From IMG/VR virus record IMGVR_UViG_3300042863_002243, positions 1 to 64,000 of that record: 64,000 bases of DNA; one strand, 5' to 3'. This document shows positions 882-55,202 of this stretch, piece by piece. The notes below the pieces were generated by a model. The model was not told the origin of the DNA. It was given only the letters and a program-made list of their open reading frames with translations, and made no database searches. Positions within the stretch are counted from its first letter, which is position 1; each line of letters starts with the position of its first letter. The DNA comes from a virus. A program made the translations under genes and the position numbers.

Positions 882-1844
882 ATGTTATTCGAAAACGTAA
901 ATCAGTTTCAATCAGCTAAAAAAACATTATTAGAAAACGATAGAAACGTTCAACACACTGTAGAGATTCTTAAAAATTCTCAATTATTTTCTACACTTTC
1001 AGAGGGGGAAATAATTCTAGCAGTAACAGAATTAAACGAAGGTCTTGGTGATAGAATCATGAATTTCCTTAGCGGTGCTTTTGGTGGTGATGTAAACACT
1101 ATAAAAACTGTTCTAACGCAAATGAAAGAACAAGAACTTAAATACAATCAAGAAGAATTTGAAATATATAATGAATTCTACTCTCTTTTACAAGATCAAA
1201 AAGCTTTAGATAGAGATAAAACAAATCCTAGTTATCAAGAATTTAGTAATGATATTGCACAGTCAAGAAATGGACTAAATCAAAGAATGAAGGAACTAAA
1301 CAAAGCTCACGGCGACATTTTTGATGCTTTAGAGACAAAAGTTAAGGATCTAGTTAAAGATAGTAATAGAAAGAAAAAATACTTCAATGCACAAAGAGCA
1401 ACAGATGTATTAGAGACTAAAAATGACAGATACGATAAGATTAAAGCAGTAACAGCTAAGAGCTCTAGAAGATCTCAAGAATTAGAAGATTTCTTTGGCG
1501 TTAATGCAGAGCAAGCAAAACAAAACGTAGCTCAGGCACAGACTAAAGCAAATCAAGCTGTTAATGCACTTTCAAAAGTTGCACCAGTTGCACCAGGATC
1601 TACGCCATCAAGAGACGTATTTGTTAATGACCCAGAGAAAGGATTTTATGAAGATTTTGAACAAATATCAGGGAGTGCAGGTAAACCTGAGGATAAATTA
1701 AAAGAACTTAGACTATTAGAAAAGGCAATATTTACACATATAATGAAGGGAAATCATTCAGCAGAAACGATTGAGAATCTTAAAGACGTACACAAACAAG
1801 TTTCTGATATGATTCAATCATTAGGATCTAATGTTAATCCATAA
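882..1844 (+). CDS. Putative internal head (core) protein with coiled-coil character
   Basis: A 320-residue protein of no recognised enzyme family. The N terminus MLFENVNQFQSAKKTLLEND resembles the short leaders of T4 capsid-internal proteins and contains an LLE site. At residues 51-53 there is LNE followed by a Gly/Phe-rich segment (GLGDRIMNFLSGAFGG), which recurs in two other proteins of this window. The rest is highly charged, with long Lys/Glu/Gln-rich helices (residues about 80-230) suggesting coiled coil, then an Ala/Pro linker and a helical C-terminal domain. It lies directly downstream of the capsid gene and is followed at once by a similar gene, so packaging as a core or ejected protein is the likely role. 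That role is inference from position and leader. Confidence 0.7.
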   Translation: MLFENVNQFQSAKKTLLENDRNVQHTVEILKNSQLFSTLSEGEIILAVTELNEGLGDRIMNFLSGAFGGDVNTIKTVLTQMKEQELKYNQEEFEIYNEFYSLLQDQKALDRDKTNPSYQEFSNDIAQSRNGLNQRMKELNKAHGDIFDALETKVKDLVKDSNRKKKYFNAQRATDVLETKNDRYDKIKAVTAKSSRRSQELEDFFGVNAEQAKQNVAQAQTKANQAVNALSKVAPVAPGSTPSRDVFVNDPEKGFYEDFEQISGSAGKPEDKLKELRLLEKAIFTHIMKGNHSAETIENLKDVHKQVSDMIQSLGSNVNP

Positions 1845-1845
1845 T

Positions 1846-2718
1846 ATGAAATCAATTAAAAAATTAAACGAGTTTGGTTCTTTAAATGAAGGGATATTTT
1901 CTTCATTCTTTAAAGGCTTCGGTGGTACTCAAGGAAGAAGGGGTAAGCTTGAATCTTTACTAAAAGATATAAGAAAAGCTAGGGAAGAAGATGTTGATAG
2001 CGCTATTTCAATAGAAAAAGAAATCTGGAATATGCCTAAGGAGAATACTCCTGAATATAGATTCGCAATAACAAATCTTAATAGACAAGCTAGGACTTAT
2101 GCTTCTTTAAAAGGCCAGGAGATTAATTCTTTAATTAAGAATGCTAACAATCTCATAGAAGATAATCCTAAATTACAAGCATTTTTTAGTGCAGAGCTTG
2201 CTAAGATAGAAAAGGAAACCACAGAAAAACTTATAAAGAATATAAAGCCTTATAAAGAAAAAACATATCTGGATCAATTAAGTGCTGAGTTTGATAGACT
2301 TGTACAGGATTCAAATAAAAAATCATCAGTATACGGAGAATTTGGAGAGGGCGACGATAGAGTACCTAAAATAACTGTACCTGAAAAGGTTAGTAATGAT
2401 GTTTTAACATTCCTAGATATGTCTCCACAAGAAGCTGCTTTGCATTGTAAAAATTTAAACGATAAAGATATTGGTAATTATTACACACAAATAAAGTCTT
2501 TCTTTTATGATTTACAGTATAAGTATACTAGTGCAATAGATTCAGTAAGAGATTCAATTAAGAAAGCTCAGAAAGAAGGCCAAGATTGGATGATTCCTTC
2601 TTTTGATAAAGAAGAAATTAATATTAGATATTATATGAAAAAACCTATGGACAGGTTAAGAAATAGAATATCTACAATAGAAAAAGAAATGAAAAGTAGA
2701 AAGCATGGCTCTTATTAA
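1846..2718 (+). CDS. Putative capsid-targeted internal protein
   Basis: A 290-residue helical protein. I chose ATG 1846 over the in-frame ATG at 1831, because 1831 lies inside the upstream gene and 1846 gives a leader, MKSIKKLNEFGSLNEG, like those of its neighbours. LNE at residues 13-15 would be a prohead-protease-type hydrophobic-x-E site. The new N terminus would be GIFSSFFKGFGG, close to segments in the genes at 882 and 10005. The body is Lys/Glu-rich and lacks recognised catalytic motifs. The gene starts two bases after the upstream stop and overlaps the next gene by 14 bases, so it is part of one operon behind the capsid gene. Function is unknown beyond probable packaging in the head. 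Confidence 0.7.
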   Translation: MKSIKKLNEFGSLNEGIFSSFFKGFGGTQGRRGKLESLLKDIRKAREEDVDSAISIEKEIWNMPKENTPEYRFAITNLNRQARTYASLKGQEINSLIKNANNLIEDNPKLQAFFSAELAKIEKETTEKLIKNIKPYKEKTYLDQLSAEFDRLVQDSNKKSSVYGEFGEGDDRVPKITVPEKVSNDVLTFLDMSPQEAALHCKNLNDKDIGNYYTQIKSFFYDLQYKYTSAIDSVRDSIKKAQKEGQDWMIPSFDKEEINIRYYMKKPMDRLRNRISTIEKEMKSRKHGSY

Positions 2719-2989
2719 ATTAAAGAATTTTGTTACAGAACAAGAATCTGCTCAACAAAAAGGTAAAGATCTACAGGTTAAAACCACTGCAGAAAAAGAG
2801 ATGCTAGAGATTAATAAAAAGATTTCTGAAATAGATCTTGCAATAGCAAATCTTATAAAAAGAGAACAAGACGGTACTCTTAAAAAAAGTGATTCTATTA
2901 GCCAGCAAGCATTAGAGTTACAGAAGAAGGTTGCAGAAATGCAAAAGAAATCAGTAGCACAGAAAAAGATGGAAAGTCTTGAAAAATAA
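2705..2989 (+). CDS. Small coiled-coil protein with capsid-targeting-like leader
   Basis: A 94-residue protein beginning MALIKLKNFVTEQES, with VTE as possible processing site. Most of the remainder is one Lys/Glu/Gln-rich helix (residues 20-94), probably a coiled coil. It overlaps the end of the preceding gene by 14 bases and is the last gene before a promoter-like TATAAATA motif. Small size and high charge fit a scaffold/core component or packaged internal protein. No family is recognised. Confidence 0.65.
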   Translation: MALIKLKNFVTEQESAQQKGKDLQVKTTAEKEMLEINKKISEIDLAIANLIKREQDGTLKKSDSISQQALELQKKVAEMQKKSVAQKKMESLEK

Positions 2990-2990
2990 G

Positions 2991-3001
2991 ATATATAAAT
3001 A
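2991..3001 (+). promoter_or_regulatory. TATAAATA late-promoter-like motif
   Basis: Exact TATAAATA, the T4 late promoter core, at 2994-3001, embedded in GATATATAAATA and 12 bases before the ATG at 3013. This is the best match to the T4 consensus noticed in the window. Confidence 0.6.
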
Positions 3002-3012
3002 AAAATTATAAA

Positions 3013-3546
3013 ATGAGAAATCAATACTTAGGATATAATCCAGTTTTTGAATCACTATCACAACAAGCTAGGAAATATACAAATGTTCATATTAATGAAG
3101 ATGCAATTGCATACGAAGGTGAAAAATCACAAAAGTATTTAAAGCTTATAATAGATAATATTAGTAGCAGAATAATTACATTCACTGCTTCTATACCAGA
3201 AAAAAAATTAAGGGATTCAGTATTAGCTATAATAGATCAGGGTTACAAAACTCTATCAACTTCAGCTCCTGCTAATTTAGATGCTTTAATAGCTTCTATG
3301 AGGGGTTTATTTGACGAAGCTTATACAGAAGTTGGCGGTTCTTCTTCTAAGGATAAATTAGTTCCTATTTACGATAAAGTAAAAGAGGGAATGGAATTAT
3401 TAATGAAGGCTTATGAAAATTTAAAGAAAAAATACCCTTCGGAAATGAGTCAACCAGCATCTTTAACGAATTGTATTGGTTATTTAAAATCTTCTATAAC
3501 TAGCTTTAATACTACATTAGAAGAACTAAAGAAAAAAGCAGTATAA
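3013..3546 (+). CDS. Putative internal head protein
   Basis: A 177-residue, mostly helical protein without a recognised domain. The N terminus MRNQYLGYNPVFESLSQQ has an aromatic leader and an FES site, and a second INE lies near residue 30, both loosely like prohead-protease sites. It has its own TATAAATA motif immediately upstream and is followed 26 bases later by another gene of the same type. Its location in the capsid-proximal block suggests a packaged or core protein; evidence for function is positional only. Confidence 0.6.
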   Translation: MRNQYLGYNPVFESLSQQARKYTNVHINEDAIAYEGEKSQKYLKLIIDNISSRIITFTASIPEKKLRDSVLAIIDQGYKTLSTSAPANLDALIASMRGLFDEAYTEVGGSSSKDKLVPIYDKVKEGMELLMKAYENLKKKYPSEMSQPASLTNCIGYLKSSITSFNTTLEELKKKAV

Positions 3547-3572
3547 AAAAATAATATTAAATAAAAAATAAA

Positions 3573-5519
3573 ATGCTAAGCAAAAAATTTATATCATTAC
3601 TCGAAAGCATGAAATCACCTCATAATGAAATGTATGAGGACAGAGATGAAAGAGTAGAAAGAAGAGAGGAAAGAAGAAGAGAGCGAAGAGAAGATAAATT
3701 CGGAGTATCTACTAGTAGCACTGACGGTACTACTACAGAGGTCGAAGGGGATACAGATTTTAAAATTAGACCTTTTATTAGAGCAGTTGATCAATTAAAA
3801 TCTCAAGTTCAATCTGAAATTTTTAATATTGATCAGACAATAAAAAACAGAGAATCTGGATCACAAAGTGCTTCCACTTATAAAACAAAATTTAATGCTA
3901 TTTTAGAAATAATTTTAAAAATTGTTTCTAAGGTTGATCTAATAAAAGATAAGGAAGGAAGAAATCTTGAAGCAAATGATTTAGCTGAAATTAAAATCTT
4001 TAGAGGTCTTTATACTACAGCTTCTAATGATTTTCTTGCTGCACAGAAAGAATGGTCAGAAAAAAAATTAGAGGCTGATACTAAATATCTTTCAGATCTT
4101 AAAGACACAGACACCAATAACTTTATTATTGGTGCTAATAAAGCATTTGACGAAGCTAAAGCTATGTTAAACGATCTTATAAGAAATTCTCAATCCGCAG
4201 GATCTAGTGGATCTTCAGGATCTTCAGGAACATCAGGATCAACAGATATTGCAACAGGCGACACAATTAAAGGCGGTAAATACGCTAAAGATTCTAAAGA
4301 AGGTAAGATAGTTATAGCGGTTAAGAAAACTATCTATACTAAATTTAAAAAATATAAATCGTTATCTGATACTAATGACTGGAAGGTGGTTTATAAAGCT
4401 GGTGTAGATAATGTATCTGGTACTTTATTAGCTAACACACAGGCAGTAATAAAATTAGTAAAATTAGGACTTGCTACTAAAGAGGCACCAGAATTAAAAT
4501 CAGACAAAACAGGTGATATTACTCCAGCATTTATTGCTGCAATAAATAAGATATCAGAGGGTAAAGAAAATACATCCGGTAGATTAATAACATTCGAAAA
4601 TTTTATTAAAAATAAAATAAACGAACAATTTGACGAGGAAGCGGTAAAAACTTCTATAGCTAGTGGAAGTAGTTCATCTTCTTCTTCTAATAATTCAGGA
4701 AGTAATACCAAACCTAAAACAGAGAAACCTAAAGTTCCCACACAAGAATATAATTCAACAGGTTTTGATAATGAGACAGATGGAAATGAATTCAGAGCAT
4801 GGGTTATTAAAACACATAAAGAATGGGCAGAAACTAATGATTTATGGGCTCAAGGACCTAAAGATAACAGACTCATAAGAAAAGCTTTTAGTCAATTTGG
4901 AGCAGATTATGCTAAAACTAAAGAGGCACCAGCAGAGGTTAAAACTGTAGCAAAATTAACTCTTTCTCAATTGCAGCAAATAGTAACATCAATAAAAGCA
5001 AGCGGAGCTAAGGCAGAAATAAAAGTAACAACTGAAGAGGGAAATCCTTATGTCTTTTGGTGGAGAGGAAAAGAATATGGTCATATATTTACTAATTTTA
5101 GACTTACGTTTGTTTCTTCTTCAGGAAAGAAATTTAATGGAACATATGCTACAGGGGGAAATATTAAATTTGATAACGGAAAAACCATTACACTTAAAGA
5201 TTTTGTATTAGGAAACGCATCATTTAAAATCTCTGGCGAAAAACCTGAAGTTGCTCAATCCAAGAAAGCTTTTGTTGCTAGTTCAGGAGATGGTTATGTT
5301 AACGTGAGATCTGGAGCATTCGCAGATACCAAAGGAGGAAACGCGAACTTAATCTATAAGCATACCGATAAGTCTAAGCAAATAGGTGTAGTTGTATCTA
5401 GTCAAGTAACTAAAAGCTCTAAAATTGGAGACAAGACTTGGTACAAAGTACAATTTCCTACAAAAATGTCAGGGCAGGAATTCGGATACGTTAGATCTGA
5501 CACTGTTGATCTAAAATAA
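3573..5519 (+). CDS. Large capsid-targeted protein with Ser/Gly linkers and C-terminal SH3b-like domain
   Basis: A 648-residue protein. The leader MLSKKFISLLESMKS ends in LLE, as in T4-type capsid-targeting peptides. Next comes a very charged Arg/Glu stretch (about residues 22-43), a helical domain (60-205), a low-complexity GSSGSSGSSGTSGS linker (about 210-225), a second domain (240-360), another Ser-rich linker (365-385), a mixed region, and a C-terminal bacterial SH3-like module (about 565-648, with GYVNVRSGAF near its start and TWYKVQF near its end). SH3b modules commonly bind cell-wall peptides, so after ejection this protein could act at the envelope; a structural role is equally possible. 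No catalytic residues were identified. It is the last gene of the capsid-proximal block. Confidence 0.65.
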   Translation: MLSKKFISLLESMKSPHNEMYEDRDERVERREERRRERREDKFGVSTSSTDGTTTEVEGDTDFKIRPFIRAVDQLKSQVQSEIFNIDQTIKNRESGSQSASTYKTKFNAILEIILKIVSKVDLIKDKEGRNLEANDLAEIKIFRGLYTTASNDFLAAQKEWSEKKLEADTKYLSDLKDTDTNNFIIGANKAFDEAKAMLNDLIRNSQSAGSSGSSGSSGTSGSTDIATGDTIKGGKYAKDSKEGKIVIAVKKTIYTKFKKYKSLSDTNDWKVVYKAGVDNVSGTLLANTQAVIKLVKLGLATKEAPELKSDKTGDITPAFIAAINKISEGKENTSGRLITFENFIKNKINEQFDEEAVKTSIASGSSSSSSSNNSGSNTKPKTEKPKVPTQEYNSTGFDNETDGNEFRAWVIKTHKEWAETNDLWAQGPKDNRLIRKAFSQFGADYAKTKEAPAEVKTVAKLTLSQLQQIVTSIKASGAKAEIKVTTEEGNPYVFWWRGKEYGHIFTNFRLTFVSSSGKKFNGTYATGGNIKFDNGKTITLKDFVLGNASFKISGEKPEVAQSKKAFVASSGDGYVNVRSGAFADTKGGNANLIYKHTDKSKQIGVVVSSQVTKSSKIGDKTWYKVQFPTKMSGQEFGYVRSDTVDLK

Positions 5520-5532
5520 TCGAAATTTTACT

Positions 5533-5550
5533 TATATTTGGGGTATAATC
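5533..5550 (+). promoter_or_regulatory. Promoter-like TATATTTG / GGTATAAT region
   Basis: TATATTTG at 5533-5540 matches the TAnnTTTG -10 element described for Bacteroidota housekeeping promoters, and GGGTATAAT follows immediately. It lies in the intergenic gap before the kinase-like gene. Which element is used, if any, cannot be decided from sequence alone. Confidence 0.35.
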
Positions 5551-5564
5551 ATAAACAAAAGATT

Positions 5565-6101
5565 ATGCCCCTTATTATTGTAGAAGGTTCTAGAAAATCT
5601 GGTAAGTCTTATCTTATATCAAAGCAGACTGATTTTCCTGTTTTCAAATTTGATTTTAATTCTAATTTCTCAACATGGGATTTTGGTAAACAATCAGAAG
5701 ATATTCATTGGTTTGGTCTAGGGAAAGAAGTTATGCTTCACGAATTAAACTCGTCCGGATTTCTAGAAGAAATGGTAGTTGATAGAGGAATATTAACAAA
5801 CTCTGTCTGGGGTGTATTTCAAGGAAGAGTCACAAAGACCCAAGCAGAACAAGATCTTATAAATTTTCATAAACGAGGTCTATTTAAAAATGTAAGAATC
5901 TTAGTAGTCGAAGGAGAATGGAATCAATCAAGAACTAAAGATATTTGGGATAATGACGACTCTAGAGCAGAAGAAGAAAGGGTTCTTTTTAGATCGTTTT
6001 CTTTGCTTCTAAAGGACTTAGGAGTAGACATAAGGTCTTTCACTAATAACTTTGATTTGGAGTCAGTAGTACGCTTTAAAAACGAAATTAGAAAGAATTA
6101 A
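5565..6101 (+). CDS. P-loop nucleotide kinase-like protein
   Basis: A 178-residue P-loop NTPase from ATG 5565; an in-frame TTG at 5538 lies within the promoter-like sequence and is less likely. The Walker A motif GSRKSGKS is at about residues 8-15, right after a beta-strand (PLIIVEG), as in thymidylate kinase, dNMP kinase and polynucleotide kinase folds. A conserved-looking VVDRG segment may hold the Walker B/DR element. The Arg-rich mid-section and DNDDSRAEEE segment could form the lid. It is followed two bases after its stop by the asparagine synthetase gene, so the pair is probably co-transcribed. The substrate (nucleotide, polynucleotide or small molecule) cannot be assigned. Confidence 0.65.
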   Translation: MPLIIVEGSRKSGKSYLISKQTDFPVFKFDFNSNFSTWDFGKQSEDIHWFGLGKEVMLHELNSSGFLEEMVVDRGILTNSVWGVFQGRVTKTQAEQDLINFHKRGLFKNVRILVVEGEWNQSRTKDIWDNDDSRAEEERVLFRSFSLLLKDLGVDIRSFTNNFDLESVVRFKNEIRKN

Positions 6102-6103
6102 AT

Positions 6104-7516
6104 ATGTGTGGAATTTTAGTAGCAAAAAGACCAAGTGAGCAAAGAATATTATCCATAGCTCACAGAGGAATAGAACACAGTACAGTTTATAAAGACGACT
6201 TATGCCTAGTACACCACAGACTACCAATTCAAACAGTAGATGGTGATAGTTGGTCACAGCCAATACAAATTGGAGAAGACCGATGGTTATTGTTCAATGG
6301 AGAGATCTTTAATTACGGAGATTTTGAATCTGACACAGCATATTTACAAAATCTATTCAGTTCTTTTAATTTTGGAAGTGTTGGTATGCTACAAGCTTTA
6401 TTTGAACCACATATTGTTGCATGGGATGGCTTTTGGGCTATAACATTAGTTGACACTAAGAAAAGAGAAATATTTGCTTTCACAGATCCATTAGGAAAAA
6501 AATCCCTATACAGAAACGATTCGGGGGAAATATGTTCAGAAATAAAAGGACTATTTGAACCAGGAGAGAATTTACAGATTGACGAATCATTTTTTAGTGG
6601 TGTTGTAAAATTTGGATATCTTCCTAATGCACAGACACCTATAGCAAATGTTAAAAAATTAGAACCAAATAGATTCTACAGATGGAGTTTAGATCATCCA
6701 ATAAAAGTGGAGGTTTCAGATCCTTATTATAATTTTCATTATTTTGATGCGGGACTAAGAACATATGATGATCGATGTGATTGGCTTTTTGAAAAGATGG
6801 AAAAATCTGTAGGAGCTAGACTACTATCCAAAAACTACCCTACATCTCTACTTTTATCAGGCGGATTAGATTCTGCAATAATTGCGGGGCTTTTATTAAA
6901 GCTAGATGCTGATGTTGATTTCTATTCTATTTCTAATGGAGAAGATGAGAAGTATGTAAAAGATTGTGAGTACTACTGGGATATAGAATCTAAAAGGCTG
7001 AACTATTCAATTGATTTAGAAAGTGAAGAAGGTCAAAAAAATCTGAAAGAGATCTATAAAAAATGGAATGAATCACCAGTTGATATGGGTAGTGTGGTTC
7101 CTCAATATCATTTATTTGATGCTATCAAAAAAGGATCTAATACGAGGATTGTAATATCTGGGGATGGAGCAGATGAATTATTTGGAGGATATAGAAGAAT
7201 TAATGAATATGATTCACAGCAATCTGATATCTTTCACGAATTATCTTATTATCATTTACCAAGACTAGATAAGTTATCTATGGCTCATACACTAGAATTA
7301 AGAAGTCCTTTCTTAAATCATGATATTGTGAGATTTGCTTTGAGTCTTCCTTTTGAAGAAAGAAAGAATAAGAAAATTCTTAAAGACACATTCAAAGGAC
7401 TAGTACCAGATTCAGTTATAGAAAGAAGCAAATTAGCTCTTAAGAATACAAAGATTGTTGAGAATCAAATAGAATACAGAAAAGATATAGTTAAATTATA
7501 TCTAGGAGATTTATAA
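6104..7516 (+). CDS. asnB: Glutamine-dependent asparagine synthetase (AsnB-like)
   Basis: A 470-residue class II amidotransferase. Cys2 of the MCGI start is the N-terminal nucleophile that releases ammonia from glutamine. NGEIFNY and the DPLGKKSLY segment complete the glutaminase domain (about 1-190). The synthetase domain carries the pyrophosphate loop SGGLDS (near residue 252) and SGDGADELFGGYRR, the region that shapes the aspartyl-AMP site. It is shorter than bacterial AsnB (about 550 residues), mainly by compact loops. Known activity of the family is ATP-dependent amidation of aspartate; relatives amidate sugars or peptides. Here it lies between capsid genes and an ATP-grasp ligase, so it may amidate a phage product rather than only supply asparagine. 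Convergent with the ligase gene, overlapping it by 6 bases. Confidence 0.88.
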   Translation: MCGILVAKRPSEQRILSIAHRGIEHSTVYKDDLCLVHHRLPIQTVDGDSWSQPIQIGEDRWLLFNGEIFNYGDFESDTAYLQNLFSSFNFGSVGMLQALFEPHIVAWDGFWAITLVDTKKREIFAFTDPLGKKSLYRNDSGEICSEIKGLFEPGENLQIDESFFSGVVKFGYLPNAQTPIANVKKLEPNRFYRWSLDHPIKVEVSDPYYNFHYFDAGLRTYDDRCDWLFEKMEKSVGARLLSKNYPTSLLLSGGLDSAIIAGLLLKLDADVDFYSISNGEDEKYVKDCEYYWDIESKRLNYSIDLESEEGQKNLKEIYKKWNESPVDMGSVVPQYHLFDAIKKGSNTRIVISGDGADELFGGYRRINEYDSQQSDIFHELSYYHLPRLDKLSMAHTLELRSPFLNHDIVRFALSLPFEERKNKKILKDTFKGLVPDSVIERSKLALKNTKIVENQIEYRKDIVKLYLGDL

Positions 7517-9007
7517 AACTTCTTCTTCGCTATTTCCGTTAGCTTTTATCACTTTAACACCTGCTATTGGATCTCCTTTAGCATCTTTAGGTGAATAACC
7601 TTTAGGTCTATCACTAATAACAAAATCTTCAGAAGGATCTACAATAAGACCAGCAGAACTTAAGAAATCTCTATTAAGTAATAAAGGTGTACTTTTTTCT
7701 GTTCTATCTACTAATGAGAATTTAACTTTCTTGTAAACTATACCATTAAAATCAACATCAAGATTAACTACAGATCTGTGGTGTATTTTTTCACCTACCT
7801 CTGCTCTAGATTGACCTATAATTTTATTTACAAATTCTTGATTTCCTAATTTCCAGTGTACGCTTCCGTCTGTTTCTTCAATAGAGTCAGCGTGTAAAGA
7901 ACAAGAGTTAGCTCCATTTCCTGTATCAAGTTTACCAACAAAAGTACCAACCCCTGAAATAGTAACCATCTCTCTAAATCCTGCAATTTTTTTAGGTTTA
8001 ACCCAATTCTTTTTATCTAATAAGAAATCCAATACCATATCAGTTACTGGTATATTCGTTGTTTTTTCTATTCCTGTAGTACCTGGGGAAGCGTTAACTT
8101 CAAGTACATAAGGTTTATTTTCTCTGTTTTTTTCTACAATAATATCTACTCCACACCATAGACATCCAGTAGCTTTTGCTGATTCAATTGCTATTCTTTC
8201 AATCTCCGGAGAAAGCTCTACTGTTTCTGTGTCACCACCTAGTGAGAAGTTAGTTCTAAAATCACCTTCAATTTTGATTCTTTTCATTGCTGCAATGACT
8301 TTGTACTCTCTTCCAGACATACCATCAGATTCAGCAATTACATGTATTCTAAGGTCGTATTCAGCATCAATCTTTTCTTGTAAAACAATCTCAGTATCTG
8401 GTGACAAATACCATAATGCTTGAAGGGTAGATACCAATGAAGGTCTTGAATCTATCATAAAAACTCCGATACCTTTAGTACCTGATAGGAATTTACAGAC
8501 AACTGGATAAGTTCCACCAACATCTTCTAAAGCTTTATCTATATCAGCCTCTGATGATATAAGAGCAGTCTTAGGAACAGGTATTTTTGCTAATTGTAAT
8601 TTTCTAGTGGTTTGTAATTTATCTTCACACATGATAACAGAATCATAGGAGTTCACACACGGAAATCCTAAATCTTCCATTTTCTTAAAAAATCCTTTAG
8701 CTGCATTGTTTTTTATAGCAGATCTTCTTGTAAGAACCACCGTTCTATCTAAATAAATTTCTTGTTGTTTTCCTCCTCTACTTGATATTAAAAAAGTTCC
8801 TTTAGTTGTTTTTTGTATAGATCCTTTTTCTGTGTCTATAATTATACACCTAACCCCTCTTTCTTCACAGATTTTCATTATTTTATCTGTGCTTGGTGCA
8901 TTTTTTAAACTCCTACCTAACTTTGTGGTAAGGATTACTACTGTCAAGGGCCTTTCTTTTCCTTTTACGCCTTTAAAAACAAACTTTTCTAATAGAGGGA
9001 TATCCAT
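7511..9007 (-). CDS. RimK-like ATP-grasp ligase fused to RimB-like retropepsin domain
   Basis: A 498-residue two-domain protein. Residues about 20-330 form a RimK-type ATP-grasp ligase: the CKFLSGTKGIGVFM Gly loop, the QEKIDAEYDLRIHVI strand, and the metal-binding VLEVNASPG motif. RimK enzymes add glutamate (or related amino acids) to protein C termini or small acceptors using ATP. Residues about 342-475 resemble the retropepsin-like RimB/'ATP-dependent zinc protease' family: GKLDTGNGANSCSLHA carries the Asp-Thr-Gly triad with Asp near residue 361. The two activities are separate neighbouring genes in many bacteria; here they are fused. The adjacent upstream minus-strand gene encodes a protein made largely of Glu/Asp, a plausible acceptor. 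A GATATATA-like motif lies 12 bases upstream of the ATG. Confidence 0.85.
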   Translation of the reverse strand: MDIPLLEKFVFKGVKGKERPLTVVILTTKLGRSLKNAPSTDKIMKICEERGVRCIIIDTEKGSIQKTTKGTFLISSRGGKQQEIYLDRTVVLTRRSAIKNNAAKGFFKKMEDLGFPCVNSYDSVIMCEDKLQTTRKLQLAKIPVPKTALISSEADIDKALEDVGGTYPVVCKFLSGTKGIGVFMIDSRPSLVSTLQALWYLSPDTEIVLQEKIDAEYDLRIHVIAESDGMSGREYKVIAAMKRIKIEGDFRTNFSLGGDTETVELSPEIERIAIESAKATGCLWCGVDIIVEKNRENKPYVLEVNASPGTTGIEKTTNIPVTDMVLDFLLDKKNWVKPKKIAGFREMVTISGVGTFVGKLDTGNGANSCSLHADSIEETDGSVHWKLGNQEFVNKIIGQSRAEVGEKIHHRSVVNLDVDFNGIVYKKVKFSLVDRTEKSTPLLLNRDFLSSAGLIVDPSEDFVISDRPKGYSPKDAKGDPIAGVKVIKANGNSEEEVL

Positions 9008-9010
9008 ACC

Positions 9011-9021
9011 AATATATATCT
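9011..9021 (-). promoter_or_regulatory. GATATATA-type motif before the ATP-grasp gene
   Basis: Read on the minus strand, AGATATATATTGG ends about 8-12 bases before the ATG at 9007, the same arrangement as before other first genes in the window. It separates this gene from the terminator of the gene behind it. Confidence 0.45.
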
Positions 9022-9023
9022 GT

Positions 9024-9059
9024 GGAAAAAGAAAAAGCCCAGATTATAATCTAGGCTTT
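9024..9059 (-). terminator. Rho-independent terminator of the hyperacidic-protein operon
   Basis: On the minus strand, AAAGCC-TAGATTATAATCT-GGGCTTT forms a long hairpin with one mismatch, followed by TTTTTCTTTTT. It lies just after the stop of the gene at 9083-9739. Confidence 0.8.
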
Positions 9060-9082
9060 GTATCTTTTATTATTTAATGTGA

Positions 9083-9739
9083 TTAATTAAAGAAATTATC
9101 GAATCTTATAACCTTCTCCGAAGTATCATCCTCTTCCTCTTCTAAATCCGATTCGTCCTCTTCTTCAGTGTCATCTTCGTCATCTTCTTCAGTGTCATCT
9201 TCGTCATCTTCTTCTTCGTCTTCTGCTTCGATATCGTCCTCGTCAGATTCTTCTTCGTCTTCTACTTCAATTTCGTCCTCGTCAGATTCTTCTTCGTCTT
9301 CGTCGGATTCTTCCTCGTCTTCGTCAGATTCTTCTTCGTCCTCTTCATATTCTTCTTCGTCCTCTTCAGATTCTTCTTCGTCAGATTCTTCTTCGTCAGA
9401 TTCTTCTTCGTCTTCGTCAGATTCTTCTTCGTCTTCGTCAGATTCTTCTTCGTCAGATTCTTCTTCTTCGTCCGATTCTTCTTCTTCGTCAGATTCTTCT
9501 TCGTCAGATTCTTCTTCGTCCTCGTCAGATTCTTCTTCTTCGTCAGATTCTTCTTCGTCAGATTCTTCAGTATCTAGATCGTCTAGGTCCTCGTCTTCTT
9601 CGTCAGATTCTTCTTCGTCCTCATCAGTTTCTTCTTCCTCCTCTTCTTCTATTTCAGAATCTTGCCAAAAATCATTTTTTGGCATTTCAGAAGGTTTTCT
9701 TGAGTTAAACTCTTCGAATGATAATATTTTTTTATCCAT
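9083..9739 (-). CDS. Hyperacidic Glu/Asp/Ser repeat protein with capsid-targeting-like leader
   Basis: A 218-residue protein of which residues about 28-205 consist almost only of Glu, Asp and Ser in imperfect ESDEEE/EEESDEDE repeats. The ends are different: MDKKILSFEEFNSRKPSE at the N terminus resembles the leaders of other internal proteins in this window, and the C terminus ends VIRFDNFFN, itself similar to ILSFEEFN. The net charge would be extremely negative. Such a polyanion packaged in a head could act as a scaffold/core mass (T4 core contains acidic proteins), a DNA mimic or a counter-ion regulator. The Glu-adding RimK-like ligase is the next gene on the same strand and could extend or modify it; this is inference. 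First of its transcript's end, three genes read together from 10727 to 9083. Confidence 0.75.
   Translation of the reverse strand: MDKKILSFEEFNSRKPSEMPKNDFWQDSEIEEEEEEETDEDEEESDEEDEDLDDLDTEESDEEESDEEEESDEDEEESDEEESDEEEESDEEEESDEEESDEDEEESDEDEEESDEEESDEEESEEDEEEYEEDEEESDEDEEESDEDEEESDEDEIEVEDEEESDEDDIEAEDEEEDDEDDTEEDDEDDTEEEDESDLEEEEDDTSEKVIRFDNFFN
9122..9650. repeat. Trinucleotide-rich low-complexity repeat coding for poly-(E/D/S)
   Basis: Imperfect tandem repeats on the plus strand of TCAGATTCTTCTTCGTC-type units (14-20 bases), corresponding on the minus strand to GAAGAAGAATCTGA. Such tracts are prone to replication slippage, so length differences between related phages are expected. Confidence 0.85.
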
Positions 9740-9751
9740 TTTTTTTGTTTT

Positions 9752-10003
9752 TTATTCAGTTACACCTATAGAAGCTCCGCTTCCTGATTCTGTTGCTCCG
9801 TAACCAGGATAATCTATTTTAGAAAATCCATTAAAGATTGCGTCTTTATAGCCAACATAATCATAAGCAGATTCTGGTTTTATTTTATGTAATCCAGTTC
9901 TGTCTTCTTTACTAAGATTCTCTGGGTTCCAAGGATCATTAGCCACTTTCATAAAGTCTTTATAGCTAAGTACTTCTCTTTTTTTTACGTTCTTCTGATT
10001 CAT
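9752..10003 (-). CDS. Small conserved-type hypothetical protein
   Basis: An 83-residue protein, MNQKNVKKREVLSYKDFMK at the start, where LSYKDFMK resembles the leader pattern of nearby internal proteins. The middle contains NPENLSKEDRTGLHKIKP and the end is Gly/Ser-rich (YGATESGSGASIGVTE). No domain is recognised. It sits one base after the 240-residue gene and 12 bases before the hyperacidic gene on the same strand, so the three form an operon. A packaged head protein is possible. Confidence 0.6.
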   Translation of the reverse strand: MNQKNVKKREVLSYKDFMKVANDPWNPENLSKEDRTGLHKIKPESAYDYVGYKDAIFNGFSKIDYPGYGATESGSGASIGVTE

Positions 10004-10004
10004 A

Positions 10005-10727
10005 TTAATTAGCGAAATTTAAAATACTTGTTAGTCCACTTTTAGCAGCTTTAGTGAATATATTAGGATCTTTATTTTCTGCTCCTTGTATTTCTGATGC
10101 TATCTTTTGTTTATCTACATCCGTAACATTTTTACCACTTATAACATCTCCAAGATTGAATCCACAAATTTTATCTCCAATCATAGTTTCAATATTGTTC
10201 ATGAATGCTGTGTTGTTAGCTGCATTAGTTAAAGCCTCTCTTAGTCCTGCTGCTATAGTTGCTCCCATTCCACTTTGCATATCCATTTTTAAACCTAATC
10301 TAGGTAATAAATATTCTATTCCTCTTTCTTGTAATGTTTCAGAAAGACCCTCTACAACTGCTTTTGACCAGAACTTACAAGATCCTTTACCAAAATAACT
10401 ACCAAGATCTGTGAAATGCACCTGCTCAATAATGTTTCGTATTACTTGATAAAAGAATGTTGGTTGTCCCATTTCATCGAATGCTTCAATACCAAGTTTT
10501 TCTGTTGCCCAGTCAATAACATAATCTTTAAAAGTATCTGTAAAACCACCTCCTAATGATCCTAAAAATGAAGCAAAAATATTTTCATTTATTTGTTCTT
10601 CATTTAATCCCTCGGACTTAAGTTTAAGGTATTCATTTTCTAAAAGTGACATTTCATTACTGTATGATACATTTAATGAAGCATTTTTAGATTCTGCCAG
10701 AAATTGTGAATATTTACGAATAGTCAT
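10005..10727 (-). CDS. Capsid-targeted internal protein with hydrophobic Gly-rich segment
   Basis: A 240-residue protein starting MTIRKYSQFLAESKN, strikingly like the leader of T4 internal protein III (MKTYQEFIAEA, from memory), with LAE as the expected prohead-protease site. A second site INE (residues 46-48) precedes NIFASFLGSLGGG, shared in form with the genes at 882 and 1846. The remainder is helical with moderately hydrophobic stretches (residues 105-165, including SGMGATIAAGLREAL), which could interact with membranes on ejection. The first gene of a three-gene minus-strand operon; a GATATATA motif lies about 24 bases upstream. Packaging in the head is inferred from the leader; the activity is unknown. 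Confidence 0.75.
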   Translation of the reverse strand: MTIRKYSQFLAESKNASLNVSYSNEMSLLENEYLKLKSEGLNEEQINENIFASFLGSLGGGFTDTFKDYVIDWATEKLGIEAFDEMGQPTFFYQVIRNIIEQVHFTDLGSYFGKGSCKFWSKAVVEGLSETLQERGIEYLLPRLGLKMDMQSGMGATIAAGLREALTNAANNTAFMNNIETMIGDKICGFNLGDVISGKNVTDVDKQKIASEIQGAENKDPNIFTKAAKSGLTSILNFAN

Positions 10728-10743
10728 TTTAATCTACTTTTAA

Positions 10744-10782
10744 TGTATATATCATTTTACCTGTGGGAATCTGATATATATG
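10744..10782. promoter_or_regulatory. Divergent pair of GATATATA motifs
   Basis: On the minus strand GATATATACATTA (around 10740-10752) faces the gene starting at 10727. On the plus strand TGATATATATG (10772-10782) lies 6-15 bases before the ATG at 10788. Two divergent genes each having the same motif at similar distance supports a regulatory role. Confidence 0.5.
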
Positions 10783-10787
10783 TAGTA

Positions 10788-11198
10788 ATGGCAAGAATTT
10801 TAAAGATAGACAATTTTACAGATGCTTTTCCCAGCTTTTATGGATTAGAAGGAGATGGTGCTTGTTATAGTGTTACTAATCCATTTTCAGTGGATATTTT
10901 AATATCCTATGATGTTAAAGGTAAAATAGGTGATATAGATTACTTGGAGCCAACTTGGACACAATACCAATGTCAAGAAGGAGATCTTATAACATGTAAC
11001 AAAAACGGATGTTATATAGAACCAAAGGCTTCTGAATATTTTGTTGAATGTATGCCTAACGATAAAACCAAACCAGGAGAGCCAAGCTTTGATAAATTCC
11101 CAGTGGAATCTTTAAAAAAAATAGGCATCGATTTAATAAATTCACAATCTATGGGATTTGAAGAAAGAAAGAAAATAACACTTACATCGGGATTATGA
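10788..11198 (+). CDS. Hypothetical protein, possible internal protein
   Basis: A 136-residue protein when started at ATG 10788; the longer in-frame start at 10743 would read through the promoter-like motif and is unlikely. The start MARILKIDNFTDAFPSFYG has the aromatic leader pattern of neighbours but no clear hydrophobic-x-E site. The body is a probable beta-rich domain with four or more Cys (CYSV, YQCQ, ITCNKNGCY). Function is unknown. It overlaps the next gene by ATGA, showing translational coupling. Confidence 0.6.
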   Translation: MARILKIDNFTDAFPSFYGLEGDGACYSVTNPFSVDILISYDVKGKIGDIDYLEPTWTQYQCQEGDLITCNKNGCYIEPKASEYFVECMPNDKTKPGEPSFDKFPVESLKKIGIDLINSQSMGFEERKKITLTSGL

Positions 11199-11758
11199 AA
11201 AGGATCTTTACATTTAACCAATTTAATCTAGACGAAAGTTCTGCTGCAGGAAATATGGGACAGACATATTCAATACCGTTTGCTTATACATCTAACGATC
11301 CAAAAGATGGTTATAGTAGTAAAAGTTTTTGCGACGATTTAGAAGCTGTTTTTATAGAAAAACCAAATCTAAGAAAAGAAATTATTGAATTTTTATCATC
11401 CAACTTAGGGATATCAAAAATTGAAGAATTAGCAATAATGCCATTTATAAAAGTAGCTAAAGTCATACCTGAGATAGAAAGAATAATAGAAGCAGGTGAA
11501 TATGAGCCAGAGACCACAATGCCTGGAGGCGGATTACTATTTATAAGAAATAAGATTTTTGCTAATGGCGGGGGAGCAGATTTCTATATAAATAGAAAAG
11601 GCACTAAGGTGGAAGTTGTTACAGAGGACGAAATGGGTAACGAGAAGGTTCGAATATTTGATATAGAAAAATTCCCTTTCGATCGTTTTGAATTTACAGA
11701 AGAGGATAAAGAAGAACTTAATGCTTTAAAAAAAGCTAAAGGAGGATTCAGCTTTTAA
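11195..11758 (+). CDS. Hypothetical capsid-targeted protein
   Basis: A 187-residue protein with the leader MKRIFTFNQFNLDESS, where LDE would be the processing site. The rest shows helical segments (residues 45-105) and a C-terminal part with GGGLLFIRNKIFANGGGADFYI suggesting a beta-hairpin followed by KGTKVEVVTEDEMG. No known family is recognised. The gene overlaps its upstream partner by four bases (ATGA) and overlaps the tail of the convergent gene on the other strand by 11 bases. Confidence 0.6.
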   Translation: MKRIFTFNQFNLDESSAAGNMGQTYSIPFAYTSNDPKDGYSSKSFCDDLEAVFIEKPNLRKEIIEFLSSNLGISKIEELAIMPFIKVAKVIPEIERIIEAGEYEPETTMPGGGLLFIRNKIFANGGGADFYINRKGTKVEVVTEDEMGNEKVRIFDIEKFPFDRFEFTEEDKEELNALKKAKGGFSF

Positions 11759-43991: not shown

Positions 43992-44013
43992 TCAAAATTA
44001 ACTATAATTTTAT

Positions 44014-44952: not shown

Positions 44953-44953
44953 T

Positions 44954-50035: not shown

Positions 50036-50091
50036 AAACTTGGAAATTTTATCTACTCTTAATACTAAAATAAATACAAACTCTAAATAAA

Positions 50092-51201: not shown

Positions 51202-51229
51202 TATTAATATTTAATAATATTTTTGAATT

Positions 51230-51263
51230 AGAGTTTTACTTATAAGTAAAACTCTTTTTTTTG
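51230..51263 (+). terminator. Strong Rho-independent terminator
   Basis: Perfect inverted repeat AGAGTTTTACTTA / TAAGTAAAACTCT followed by eight T. It ends the S1-like gene transcript, 30 bases past its stop codon. The rest of the 170-base gap up to 51371 shows only the promoter-like motif listed next. Confidence 0.92.
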
Positions 51264-51358
51264 TGATTATCTAGAGGTAATTTATTATCGTTTTTAATTG
51301 ATAATACAAATAAGAAATAAAGATATAAAAAGCTAAAAGGGTTTATCTTTTCTTTTAC

Positions 51359-51369
51359 GAATATATAGT
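51359..51369 (+). promoter_or_regulatory. GAATATATAGTA motif
   Basis: TATATA at 51362-51367 lies 10 bases before ATG 51372, in the gap after the terminator. Same type as the motifs before other first genes, again so close that a transcript would be almost leaderless. Confidence 0.4.
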
Positions 51370-51371
51370 AT

Positions 51372-52799
51372 ATGGATATTAGCACAAGAGATTTTTTATA
51401 CTCTGCCCAATGTGGTTTTGAATTTGAGTTTTTTAGTAACTTAAATAGAAACGAGATAGCAGATTCGCTAGGGAAAACTTTAGGTAAAAAAATTCTTCTA
51501 TTTAGTAAGTATCATTCAGGTTTTAAACCCACTAAGGATATTTTTAAATTAGAACCAGATTACTCAGGAGGATCTAAGATGACCGAATTAATAACTGGGC
51601 CTTTACCTTATTTTGAAGCGATAGTGATTCTTATAAAGACTCTTAAGTGGATTGATATGTATGGATATACAGATAAGAAATGTGCATTCCAATTTGGAAT
51701 AAGCATCGATACATCTATATTCCCTGAGGTTCCTCCGGTATCTCAAATAAACCCTCTTAAATTTATTTTAGGATTCGATGAGAATATTATCTATAAAAGA
51801 TTCCCAGAAAGAGCTGGATCTTTGTATGCTAAATCTATAAAAAGAATATTACCTGCTAATAAATTTGTAGATCCTTCAAATATTTCATTTATAGATAAGA
51901 ATCTTTTCGAAATACCAGTAGAAAAAAATATGGGTATAAATTTTACTAAATTATCGGATGGATATTTTGAAGTGAGATATTTAGGAGGTAAAGATTACCA
52001 GAGGAAGTACTCAAGTATAAAAGAAATATTAGATTATATAATAACATATACTATACAGACTCTTAAGTTTAATAATAGCTTCACAGATAATGATTTAAAA
52101 GTTCTTAAAATGTTCTTAGCAGAGATCTATAAGAGTTCTTCGACATTTATAGATCCTGAATCTTTTCAAAAGAATTACCCACATTTAAATATAATGGTAG
52201 ATCTTAGATCGGATCCACAAATAGTTAGAACATTTTTCCTGACTATTAGAGAAATTCTTTATGATATTATTGTAGATAATGGTATTAAAGAAGGTGTTAT
52301 TAATTATGATAGTTCATTAGGTAAATTTCAATTGAAGGACGTAAAAACTACAAGAGCTTATTTACTTAAAGATTATGATATTCTTAATAGTGAAATTTCA
52401 GGAAATATATTGAATTGTAGGTTGTTTTCGTGTGATCTTAACGACTGTGCTGTTGAAGATTGTGATCTAGTTACTAATAATGAAGTTAAGCGATCTAAGA
52501 TCATGTATTCGGATATTATGTTTAGTAATGTAGTACACGAAACTTATATTGATAACAAAGAGAAGGAAATAAACTGTGAAGTATTTGGTGGAATAATTAG
52601 ATCCGGGTATATTGGAAAACTTGCTACAATTTCACCAGAGACTGAAATAGTTAAAGATGCTGAAGACGATAAAAAAATGAAGGGAAGTTCTAAAAAGAAA
52701 GGATTTCCTGATAGAAATGACGGGGAAGCATTATCTAAACCTGTTAGATTTAGTAACAATAATAGTAAGCCCTCAGGAATTCCTGGGACTAGCTTCTAA
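51372..52799 (+). CDS. Amidoligase-like protein with C-terminal pentapeptide-like region
   Basis: A 475-residue protein. CGFEFEF (residues 14-20) and KLEPDYSGGSKMTELITGPL (about 58-77) match the two conserved elements of the glutamine-synthetase-like Amidoligase_2 family (G-x-E-x-E; D-x-S...E-L-x-x-x-L), whose members form amide or peptide bonds with ATP. Residues about 350-410 (LNCRLFSCDLNDCAVEDCDL, then SDIMFSN) have the five-residue periodicity of pentapeptide/beta-helix repeats. The C terminus is Lys/Ser-rich. As the second peptide-ligase-like enzyme of the window it could modify a virion or host wall peptide. First gene of its transcript, followed 17 bases later by a virion-type gene. 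Confidence 0.68.
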   Translation: MDISTRDFLYSAQCGFEFEFFSNLNRNEIADSLGKTLGKKILLFSKYHSGFKPTKDIFKLEPDYSGGSKMTELITGPLPYFEAIVILIKTLKWIDMYGYTDKKCAFQFGISIDTSIFPEVPPVSQINPLKFILGFDENIIYKRFPERAGSLYAKSIKRILPANKFVDPSNISFIDKNLFEIPVEKNMGINFTKLSDGYFEVRYLGGKDYQRKYSSIKEILDYIITYTIQTLKFNNSFTDNDLKVLKMFLAEIYKSSSTFIDPESFQKNYPHLNIMVDLRSDPQIVRTFFLTIREILYDIIVDNGIKEGVINYDSSLGKFQLKDVKTTRAYLLKDYDILNSEISGNILNCRLFSCDLNDCAVEDCDLVTNNEVKRSKIMYSDIMFSNVVHETYIDNKEKEINCEVFGGIIRSGYIGKLATISPETEIVKDAEDDKKMKGSSKKKGFPDRNDGEALSKPVRFSNNNSKPSGIPGTSF

Positions 52800-52816
52800 T
52801 TAAATAACCAATTAAA

Positions 52817-53596
52817 ATGACTGAAGCAGACTTAATTCAGGAAATTAGAGATGATATATCTCATTCTTGTGCATTGCCCTATAACTTAAATGACCAAGAA
52901 ATAAAAAGAATTATAAAAAGAGCTAGGGCTTATTTTTATGATAATTACCAGTATGCAGTAGAAGATAGAATATTTGTACTAGGTAAAGATCTATTTTCTA
53001 ATCCCTCTTTTAGAGCTACCAGACAAATACAATTGCCATCTTGTGTGGTATCTGTATATGATGTTAGAGAAGTTAATGGCTCGGGTCTTACCGGTACACC
53101 GGATAAAGATTTTGGAGATTCTAAATTATTAGGGTCTGAGCTTATGTTATCGCCATTTGCAGGAGATAACTTGGTTTATCGTACTGTTCTCTATTCATTC
53201 TTTGATTTAGCTAAAGCCTATTTACTAGAGAGTTATGCTTATAATTACAATAAGAACACCAAGAAATTAACAATACTTGGTAGAGATCCTAATAGGACTA
53301 GTGTAACTGATTCTGGAAGTTCTTCCACATTATTTTCTGGTACTGATGTGGGTGTTAAAGCTTGTATAGCTATACCAGAAGAGAGTCTTTATGATGATGA
53401 ATTATTCGTAAGATTCTGTCTTGCTGAAGCTAAAATTAACATTGGTAGGTTATTAGGTACATTCGAATATAACCTCCCAGGTGGTGTTAGAGTTAACTAC
53501 AGTAATATTCAAACAGCAGGAACAACAGAAAAAGCTGAGATTATTCAGATGATCAAAGACGAAAACACACCTAGTTATTTTTTGCAGTGGAATTGA
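52817..53596 (+). CDS. Predicted virion structural protein
   Basis: A 259-residue protein. The N terminus (LIQEIRDDISHSCALPYNLN, KRIIKRARAYFYDNYQYAVE) is the helical start typical of a structural protein seen in marine T4-like genomes, followed by two beta-rich domains (RQIQLPSCVVSVYDVREVNG) and a C-terminal helix. A neck/connector or baseplate-adaptor role is possible. No catalytic features. Flanked by the amidoligase and a homing-endonuclease gene. Confidence 0.5.
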   Translation: MTEADLIQEIRDDISHSCALPYNLNDQEIKRIIKRARAYFYDNYQYAVEDRIFVLGKDLFSNPSFRATRQIQLPSCVVSVYDVREVNGSGLTGTPDKDFGDSKLLGSELMLSPFAGDNLVYRTVLYSFFDLAKAYLLESYAYNYNKNTKKLTILGRDPNRTSVTDSGSSSTLFSGTDVGVKACIAIPEESLYDDELFVRFCLAEAKINIGRLLGTFEYNLPGGVRVNYSNIQTAGTTEKAEIIQMIKDENTPSYFLQWN

Positions 53597-53607
53597 AAAA
53601 TATACAT

Positions 53608-53626
53608 TATATTTGGATATATAATA
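53608..53626 (+). promoter_or_regulatory. TATATTTG / GGATATATAATAC motif
   Basis: Contains TATATTTG (matching the Bacteroidota-type TAnnTTTG) overlapping GGATATATAATAC, 14-32 bases before the ATG at 53640. It may serve the homing-endonuclease gene independently of the surrounding late genes. Confidence 0.4.
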
Positions 53627-53639
53627 CTAAAAATATCCA

Positions 53640-54845
53640 ATGTGTATATTACAAAAAATTGAAGAGTGGAGATCTAAAAGCGGTAAGGCATTTGGAACTA
53701 TAATGAGAGATATTCCAAAGAATCCCGATGATGTCGAACAATTAAAATCACTAACTTCTTTTCTGAACCGAATTTATAATCCTGAAAAAATTTCTATTCA
53801 GCAGAGATTTTATCATGTGTGGTTTGGATTTTATGGAATAGAAGTTTGTCCTTGTTGTGAATCCCCTAAAATGTTTACAAAAAAACCCAAATTCTCTATA
53901 GATAGGTATGGTATAAAACCTACGAATTCAGTGAATTATTATGGTACGTGTATGTCTGATTTCTGTAATAAAAAATACAATTTAGAAAAAACGCGTTCTA
54001 AAATGATGGAAAATCACGGAACTATAAATCCTATGGAGGTACCAGGTGCTTTAAATAAGATTAAGAAAAATAACAGGGAAAAATACGGAGTGGATTTTTA
54101 TACAGAAACTGAAGAGTTTAAAGAAAAAGTAAAAGCTACATTTTTAAAAAAATATGGTGTTCACCCTACTAAATTAAAGGAAACACAAGATAAGAAGAGA
54201 AAAACAAATAGAGAAAAATATGGATTTGAGCACGCATTGGATAATTCAGAAGTAAAGGAAAAATCTAGGATAACCAATAATTTAAAATACGGCGGAAATT
54301 CCAGTATGTGTTCAGATGATACCAGAAATAAATCTAAGGAGACTAATAGAAAAAATCATGGAGTAGATTGGTATGTCCAAAGTGGTGATTTTAAGCAGAA
54401 ATTCAAACAAACTATGATTGCTAATTATGGTGTTGAACAAGTTATGCACTACACTCCGTCATTTGAAAAATCTTTAAACACCTCATATAAGAAAAAGATT
54501 TTTGTTTTTCCTTCAGGAAGAATCGAAAAAATACAGGGATATGAAGGTTTTGCTTTGAATGATTTATTAGATAATGATTACACTGAGGATGATATTATAG
54601 TTTCAAATAAGAAAATAGAGGAATATACTAGTAAAATATGGTATTTAGATTCTGAAAGGAAGAAAAGAAAATATTATCCAGATATTTATTTAATTACAGA
54701 GAACAAAATAATAGAGGTTAAGTCTGAATACACTTATAAATCAGCATATTCGATAAATATTAGAAAAAAACAAGCATGTCTTGATCTTGGAATTTCTTTT
54801 GAGTTTTGGATATATGACAAGAATGGGAAAAGAACAATAAAATAG
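53640..54845 (+). CDS. Free-standing homing endonuclease (PD-(D/E)xK/Vsr-like) with DNA-binding repeats
   Basis: A 401-residue protein. An N-terminal domain holds a possible zinc site (CPCCESPKMF and later CMSDFCNKKY). Residues about 115-290 carry about six repeats of the form NREKYGVxx...EVKEKxxxTxxxKYG, the NUMOD-like DNA-binding repeats of phage homing enzymes. The C terminus has RKYYPDIYLITENKIIEVKS, with Asp348 and Glu359-x-Lys361, the PD-(D/E)xK nuclease core. Such genes are mobile elements that cut phage genomes lacking them and are copied in by repair. It separates a structural gene from a capsid-targeted gene, the usual intergenic site, with no sign that it interrupts a reading frame. 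Confidence 0.85.
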   Translation: MCILQKIEEWRSKSGKAFGTIMRDIPKNPDDVEQLKSLTSFLNRIYNPEKISIQQRFYHVWFGFYGIEVCPCCESPKMFTKKPKFSIDRYGIKPTNSVNYYGTCMSDFCNKKYNLEKTRSKMMENHGTINPMEVPGALNKIKKNNREKYGVDFYTETEEFKEKVKATFLKKYGVHPTKLKETQDKKRKTNREKYGFEHALDNSEVKEKSRITNNLKYGGNSSMCSDDTRNKSKETNRKNHGVDWYVQSGDFKQKFKQTMIANYGVEQVMHYTPSFEKSLNTSYKKKIFVFPSGRIEKIQGYEGFALNDLLDNDYTEDDIIVSNKKIEEYTSKIWYLDSERKKRKYYPDIYLITENKIIEVKSEYTYKSAYSINIRKKQACLDLGISFEFWIYDKNGKRTIK

Positions 54846-54848
54846 TAT

Positions 54849-55202
54849 ATGAAAAATTTAATAGAATATAATAGCTTCTTATTAGAATCTAAATCGATTA
54901 ATGATTCTAGATCCTTTGAGGATAGAGTTAAGTTTCTTAGGGGTGTATCTGACAATAATAAAAAAATTGCAATAGATTTACAAAAAGAATATTCCAGAGC
55001 AAATAAGGGTGTAATAACAGAATTAAATTTACATCCGGATTTAATTAAGAAGATTAAGGAAAAAAAATACCCAGATGGATTCAGCATGGGTATTGATAAA
55101 AATGGATTCTTTGTACATACTCATAGGGCTAGATCTAAATCACACGAAACTCCTTCTGGTATAACAGCAAAAGAAATGAAATTCATAGATTCTACTGGCT
55201 AA
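54849..55202 (+). CDS. Small capsid-targeted internal protein
   Basis: A 117-residue protein with the leader MKNLIEYNSFLLESKS, ending in LLE and very like the leader of the gene at 10005 (MTIRKYSQFLAESKN). The mature part contains a helix (RSFEDRVKFLRGVSDNNKKI) and a basic C-terminal region (FVHTHRARSKSHETPSGITA). The similarity to T4 internal-protein leaders suggests packaging and ejection with DNA. No enzyme motif. It lies directly after the homing endonuclease and before the baseplate wedge genes, away from the main internal-protein cluster. Confidence 0.65.
   Translation: MKNLIEYNSFLLESKSINDSRSFEDRVKFLRGVSDNNKKIAIDLQKEYSRANKGVITELNLHPDLIKKIKEKKYPDGFSMGIDKNGFFVHTHRARSKSHETPSGITAKEMKFIDSTG

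Follow-up and report, generated by a model that had tools for sequence, protein, structure and literature searches.

In the leader of the phage T4 internal protein IPIII (MKTYQEFIAE), residues 4 and 7 serve targeting while processing depends on residues 8 and 10, and the internal proteins of T4 co-purify with the scaffold gp22 (PMC9026906). At least ten internal-protein families have been reported from T-even phages, unrelated but sharing a leader, and Ip1-3 have an anti-restriction role, blocking the GmrSD enzymes (PMC12373910). Unrelated internal proteins with a common leader are established for T-even phages. Here we describe leaders of this type in the virus record IMGVR_UViG_3300042863_002243 (148,938 bases), of which bases 1-64000 form the stretch analysed (the window) and the remainder was read as L001-L005. 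With a probability of about 0.8, these leaders belong to a greatly expanded capsid-targeting system of the T4 type, in which about 25-30 otherwise unrelated proteins share the tag. The new elements are its scale, its lineage, the kinds of cargo, a second predicted cleavage site and a link to scaffold repeats. Genes are named by position in the record, with (-) for the reverse strand.

A first-pass annotation of the window had listed 11 proteins with dissimilar bodies and similar leaders. All 11 are present with the N-termini it gave, and the leader recurs far above chance. The pattern [FY]xxF[ILV]xE, drawn from published T4 work rather than from this genome and spaced as in T4, is found in 12 of 150 proteins within their first 26 residues, where 0.15 would be expected (p~1e-19). 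When 20 spacings were tried, the 19 non-T4 ones gave 0-4 matches, and in five relatives pooled the T4 pattern was found 28 times against 1.7 expected. An earlier regular expression, [FYL]..[FY][LIVFAC].E at residues 2-27, matched 18 of 152 genes, where internal windows of these proteins predict 0.9 (p~3e-18); because it was picked after the leaders had been seen, the test was rerun with the T4-defined pattern. The resemblance to the IPIII leader holds at the experimentally important residues 4, 7, 8 and 10, with the T4 spacing. The annotation also held that the leaders mostly end in hydrophobic-x-E. The excess of the T4 pattern bears this out for the set, but 9083 and 9752 have no nearby L-x-E and 10788 has no acidic site.

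The targeting box alone, [ILVM]x1-2[FY]xxF, is carried by 23 of 150 proteins, against 3.0 expected. Each of the five relatives tested also shows an excess of it, and in most proteins with the box an L-x-E site lies no more than 40 residues from it. In genome-wide controls the box alone was not enriched in Tenacibaculum phage PTm1 and its enrichment in T4 was not significant; likewise the leader excess was not significant genome-wide in either phage, as expected for few or no tags. A relaxed regular expression gave four matches in T4, IPII and IPIII among them. De novo motif search of N-termini yields ILSFNDFLLE, with a likelihood above that of internal, C-terminal or shuffled segments. Scanning the whole genome for the motif, as the annotation had proposed, shows that the tagged set is larger than the 11 listed: a broad hand list holds 31 genes, or 18% of the record, most of them at 64-148 kb and so beyond the window, and leaders are found genome-wide. 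The bodies of the leader proteins match different Pfam families or none, and what they share is a short leader right at the N-terminus. The first-pass annotation could not have seen how large the set is outside the window, nor the scaffold-repeat resemblance and the second NE|G site described below.

The record is a fragment whose first base already lies within a gp23-type major capsid protein gene, the C-terminal 240 aa of which occupy 63..785 (+) (PF07068, E 4e-40 on the full protein P0002). The genes upstream, which the record lacks, were taken from the near-identical genome G009 (locus L065), where the capsid segment and every shared orthologous leader gene are 100% identical in protein. 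The gp21-like protease that the annotation had suggested looking for upstream is present there; our own record is cut off before it. In G009 a 678-aa protein encoded upstream of the capsid gene joins a gp21-type protease to a scaffold-like region. Its residues 25-140 match Pfam Peptidase_S77 (5.5e-11), its first third matches the PHROG head-maturation protease (1.4e-38), and the sole significant PDB fold match of its model is T4 gp21 (5jbl, 1e-6), although the model is of low confidence overall and its repeats (pLDDT about 30) are too uncertain to interpret. An S77 match was found in 11 of 11 related records searched (G009 and ten other relatives). The scaffold-like region consists of 14-residue tandem repeats, NISYSEYLAENLDK, in 11 in-register copies at 42-nt spacing, and repeats are present in every relative aligned (overall identity 53-89%). 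A joined scaffold-protease is annotated in PTm1, and therefore the fusion is not new. The full capsid protein in L065 has a predicted cut at CHFHSLNE|SAGAY, an L-x-E site matching the leaders.

Two further observations concern this region. Upstream of the protease, L065:4407-6938 encodes an 843-aa protein with an NPIFES leader, a leader-like stretch in mid-protein (ILSFEDFYSVIEES), a weak endolysin-like region and a Gly-rich hydrophobic stretch; it may be an ejection protein. Among named sequences, the protease-scaffold is best matched by L157, L158 and L160, from uncultured phage genomes of 460-735 kb, and L160 carries the leaders MKHIKRFNE and IDTYIEFINE near its capsid gene.

Tag and scaffold repeat resemble each other. 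Aligned on the glutamate, the tag KYSQFLAES and the repeat SYSEYLAEN have in common aromatics at -6 and -3, S at -5, L at -2 and E at 0. A tag profile run on the G009 proteome placed 9 of its 20 best internal windows in the scaffold gene, which makes up 1.8% of windows (p 2.5e-11). Conversely, the best of 45,707 windows for a scaffold-repeat profile on the G000 proteome is the leader of 10005, and 7 of the top 20 windows are N-terminal (1.3 expected, p 2e-4). Since the scaffold is a string of tag-like 14-residue units (ISYSEYLAEN), the simplest docking model is that the tag would imitate one such unit and be cut like one. We hold tentatively, at a little under even odds, that the tag is a molecular mimic of the scaffold, in which case each cargo protein would carry one copy of the 14-residue repeat, join the core in the manner of a scaffold unit and be freed as each unit is cut by the fused protease. 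Both aromatics are present at the T4 gp23 site (FGSFLTE). The local capsid cut site has no aromatics at -6 and -3, and therefore cleavage itself may not require them.

Variants of the leader place the predicted cut further away. In the 1846 family a short spacer separates the box from an NE|G cut, as in KLNEFGSLNE|GIFSS and RLKDFELNE|GIISS, and one distant member reads RFEEFVSE|G. NE|G[IFL] is enriched near N-termini (6 against 0.38 expected). The predicted new N-termini GIFSSFFKGFGG and GFFSSIANLIKK appear amphipathic. All 11 sequences compared in the 10005 family keep the F of the leader and the E of the second site; distant members without the leader E still have the box and the second site. 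This agrees with T4, in which targeting and processing are known to be separate.

From the computed motif, its conservation, the protease, the repeats and the box, we infer packaging, cleavage, injection or ejection, docking by mimicry and an effect on the host, as follows. Tagged proteins would be made late in the infected cell, probably from GATATATA promoters. The N-terminal aromatic box (F/YxxF) would dock each of them into the core scaffold while the head is being assembled. There the scaffold-fused gp21-type protease would cut after L/I/V-x-E directly behind the box or at a later NE|G site, which would set the mature protein free within the head. Once released, the proteins would remain among the DNA, and most would enter the host alongside it.

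The octamer GATATATA is the commonest upstream 8-mer and probably a late-type promoter. It precedes 13 of 30 tagged genes and 8 of 120 others (p 5e-6), mostly 12-35 nt before the start, and structural genes are preceded by it too. In the relative G004 the same box lies before 7 of 14 tagged genes and 18 of 139 others (p 0.002). Within the window it is found at 858..865 (+), 24 nt before the 882 gene; at 2990..2997 (+), 23 nt before the 3013 gene; and at 10746..10753 (-), 26 nt before the 10005(-) gene. Another window site is at 9020(-), and 26 more are scattered through the record before late-looking genes. In several genes its distance to the start codon is just 12 nt, in which case the 5' ends would be very short or leaderless. 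A T4-like TATAAATA late promoter, unlike GATATATA, was not enriched and was rejected. Synonymous changes at tagged gene starts number 93, where 102.5 are expected, and are no less frequent than at untagged gene starts; this near-normal divergence shows that the constraint on the leader acts on the protein.

The 11 leaders that the annotation had treated as one family are not of equal quality: 10005 and 54849 are canonical, 2705 is near-canonical, 11195, 1846, 3013 and 3573 are variants, 882 is weak, and 10788 is unsupported. The canonical leader of 10005, MTIRKYSQFLAE|SK, lies at 10692..10727 (-) and matches the regular expression, with F9 invariant in 11 orthologues. The region from this leader cut to the second predicted site, INE|NIFASFLGSLGGG at E48, spans 10584..10691 (-); in the 11 orthologues E48 is invariant and N47 nearly so. 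An AlphaFold2 model of this protein had a pLDDT of 52 and was not used for fold search. The other canonical leader, MKNLIEYNSFLLE|SK at 54849..54887 (+), is a strict match on a 117-aa protein flanked by tail genes; among the genomes compared, this protein occurs only in this phage and in G009. The leader of 2705, MALIKLKNFVTE|QES at 2705..2740 (+), is also a strict match, canonical except for L at -6, and in orthologues it mostly ends in F[LVI]xEQ.

Among the variants, the 1846 leader MKSIKKLNEFGSLNE|GIFSSFFKGFGG (1846..1890, +) shows box, short spacer and NE|G site, an arrangement kept in 13 diverged orthologues. The 3013 leader MRNQYLGYNPVFE|SLS (NPVFES; 3013..3051, +) is kept as NP[VL]FES in 12 orthologues despite bodies only 24-35% identical, and P0003, upstream of the protease, starts with a motif of the same kind. 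The 648-aa protein at 3573 has an FxxLLES-type leader, MLSKKFISLLE|SMKS (3573..3605, +), and F..L[LIMT]E is kept in most orthologues at 25-40% identity. The leader of 11195, MKRIFTFNQFNLDE|SSAAGNM (11195..11236, +), has one residue more than the canonical form; two of three other orthologues are canonical, reading FNFNQFVNE|SSAAGNM or FSFAQFINE|SSAAGNM. In the 320-aa protein of the 882 gene the leader proper is weak and divergent (882..1040, +), with a predicted cut ELNE|GLGDRIMNFLSGAFGG at E53; ELNEGLGD is kept in G001 and G004 and LNEGLGD in G002, and the sequence has diverged in G005.

Box scans identified targeting boxes in two further proteins of the list, namely MDKKILSFEEF (9707..9739, -) in the acidic 218-aa protein 9083, where an adjacent L-x-E is absent, and VLSYKDF (9953..10003, -) in the 83-aa protein 9752, which is kept in 13 orthologues; no L-x-E site was found beside the box in the 9752 orthologues. 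Both are possible uncleaved variants. 10788 (MARILKIDNF..., 10788..11198, +) was rejected as a tagged protein: its orthologues have neither the box spacing nor L-x-E, and the acidic site is absent throughout. The conserved protein at window 10743-11198 is divergently oriented from the 10005 gene, and its orthologues largely keep ILKIDNF, with no cleavage motif. Likewise 57382 (MDKQSWYEFIES) was rejected as a look-alike adjoining baseplate-type genes, its E being lost in orthologues.

The cargo includes recognisable enzymes. 109811 is an adenylate kinase with the kinase domain complete behind the leader; close orthologues keep the leader, one 58% homologue is without it, and the gene appears to lie downstream of a ribonucleotide reductase gene. 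MoxR-like AAA proteins (96648, 122798) and DUF2201 proteins (94780, 124294) are tagged and form two paralogous pairs, 94780/96648 and 124294/122798 (L002:10780-14237; L003:18798 to L004:1226), with all four members carrying the tag. Other bodies are OmpA-like (143242(-), and weakly 140996(-)), CHAP (147757(-), under the curated cut-off) and pterin dehydratase (64402(-)); most of the rest have no known family. None of the leader proteins put through Pfam and PHROG scans matched the IPI, IPII or IPIII families, and a PDB sequence search with 64685(-) gave nothing. An ADP-ribosyltransferase suspected in 111786 from a YRG motif had no Pfam or PHROG support and was dropped. At window 7511-9739, the acidic D/E-rich boxed protein, gp67-like in make-up, adjoins an ATP-grasp-like protein without a leader, whose distant homologue at L112:4738-6195 has a canonical one.

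Several points weigh against this reading, for which the case is computational. A Pfam search for S77 in the 148,938-base record itself found nothing, because the record begins inside the capsid gene. Tags without a nearby cleavage site exist (9083, 9752), a role in the infected cell instead of the head would be plausible too for adenylate kinase and pterin dehydratase, and the tag-repeat resemblance could stem from a shared protease preference instead of docking. The tag might serve only for protease recognition and scaffold docking of head-assembly factors, such as core proteins and the chaperone-like AAA/DUF2201 pairs, most cargo then acting in the prohead without being delivered. We regard this as unlikely, if still a serious contender: 9083, with its leader and D/E-rich tail, has the make-up of an acidic core protein, the tag sits on MoxR-type AAA and DUF2201 proteins in two paralogous pairs, and the core proteins of T4 are likewise gp21 substrates, but CHAP and OmpA-type bodies are better suited to action on the host envelope, and small proteins confined to one lineage, 54849 for instance, are reminiscent of the fast-changing internal proteins that are ejected.

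It is distinctly improbable that the tag serves to concentrate proteins at a site of assembly or replication within the cell instead of in the head, with its T4 likeness secondary. Such a role would accommodate the two metabolic enzymes and the 9752 orthologues, which keep the box with no L-x-E site beside it, but it leaves aside the L-x-E found close to the box in most box-bearing proteins, the enrichment of the exact T4 spacing and the presence of the motif in the scaffold itself. A translation-start or RNA-level signal at the 5' ends of late genes is largely refuted: the upstream box common to tagged genes speaks for it, but GATATATA lies upstream of the coding start and precedes untagged structural genes too, and synonymous codons vary almost as gene bodies predict. 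Chance resemblance among short leaders selected by eye in an AT-rich proteome has in its favour the weak leaders of 10788 and 882 and is refuted by the T4-fixed pattern with its spacing controls and by replication in relatives.

The phage is T4-like. Among named phages, those with relatives of its capsid protein mostly infect Bacteroidota (Prevotella Lak phages, Tenacibaculum PTm1, and Chryseobacterium and Flavobacterium phages), so that the host probably belongs to this phylum. Elsewhere in the window, a long island of sugar-nucleotide and glycosyltransferase-like genes (12600-35600) has head genes on one side and tail genes on the other. At 57629-64000 no short open reading frames are listed because a single 2254-aa frame, whose position is that of a baseplate-like gene, extends beyond the window as far as 64393.

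If targeting to the capsid is the function of these leaders, a simple N-terminal rule would predict the injected protein set of a large group of uncultured phages. Many phage proteins of unknown function would gain a likely place of action, and the tagged genes would provide natural examples for loading proteins into phage heads. The tag-repeat resemblance would then offer a specific explanation, open to test, of the docking of a capsid-targeting sequence; were mimicry true, dozens of dissimilar proteins, enzymes included, could be loaded, and the question of the binding partner of the T4 targeting sequence would be answered.

No genome-wide survey of such tags in Bacteroidota phages was found in the literature searched. 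Like the IPII and IPIII leaders of T4, the leaders described here are N-terminal and about 10-16 residues long, with aromatics at -6 and -3, I/L/V at -2 and E at 0, on unrelated bodies. T4 has three tagged internal proteins, whereas the tagged set here appears to be about ten times as large (about 25-30 proteins) and includes apparently complete enzymes and the two AAA/DUF2201 pairs; a spacer often separates box and cut, and several proteins have a second NE|G site. As in the T-even internal-protein families, unrelated proteins have only a packaging leader in common, but no similarity of the bodies here to those families was found in Pfam or PHROGs, many are 200-700 aa long, and the phages are T4-type phages of a different host lineage. 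PTm1 likewise joins an S77-type protease to a scaffold beside the capsid gene, but its scaffold is without the SYSEYLAEN repeat. Similarly, the ejection proteins of phiKZ and SPN3US have propeptides, and a gp21-related protease cuts many head proteins after glutamate; cleavage in phiKZ is at S/A-x-E, and the parts of the phiKZ and SPN3US reports consulted describe no short shared aromatic box of the kind found here.

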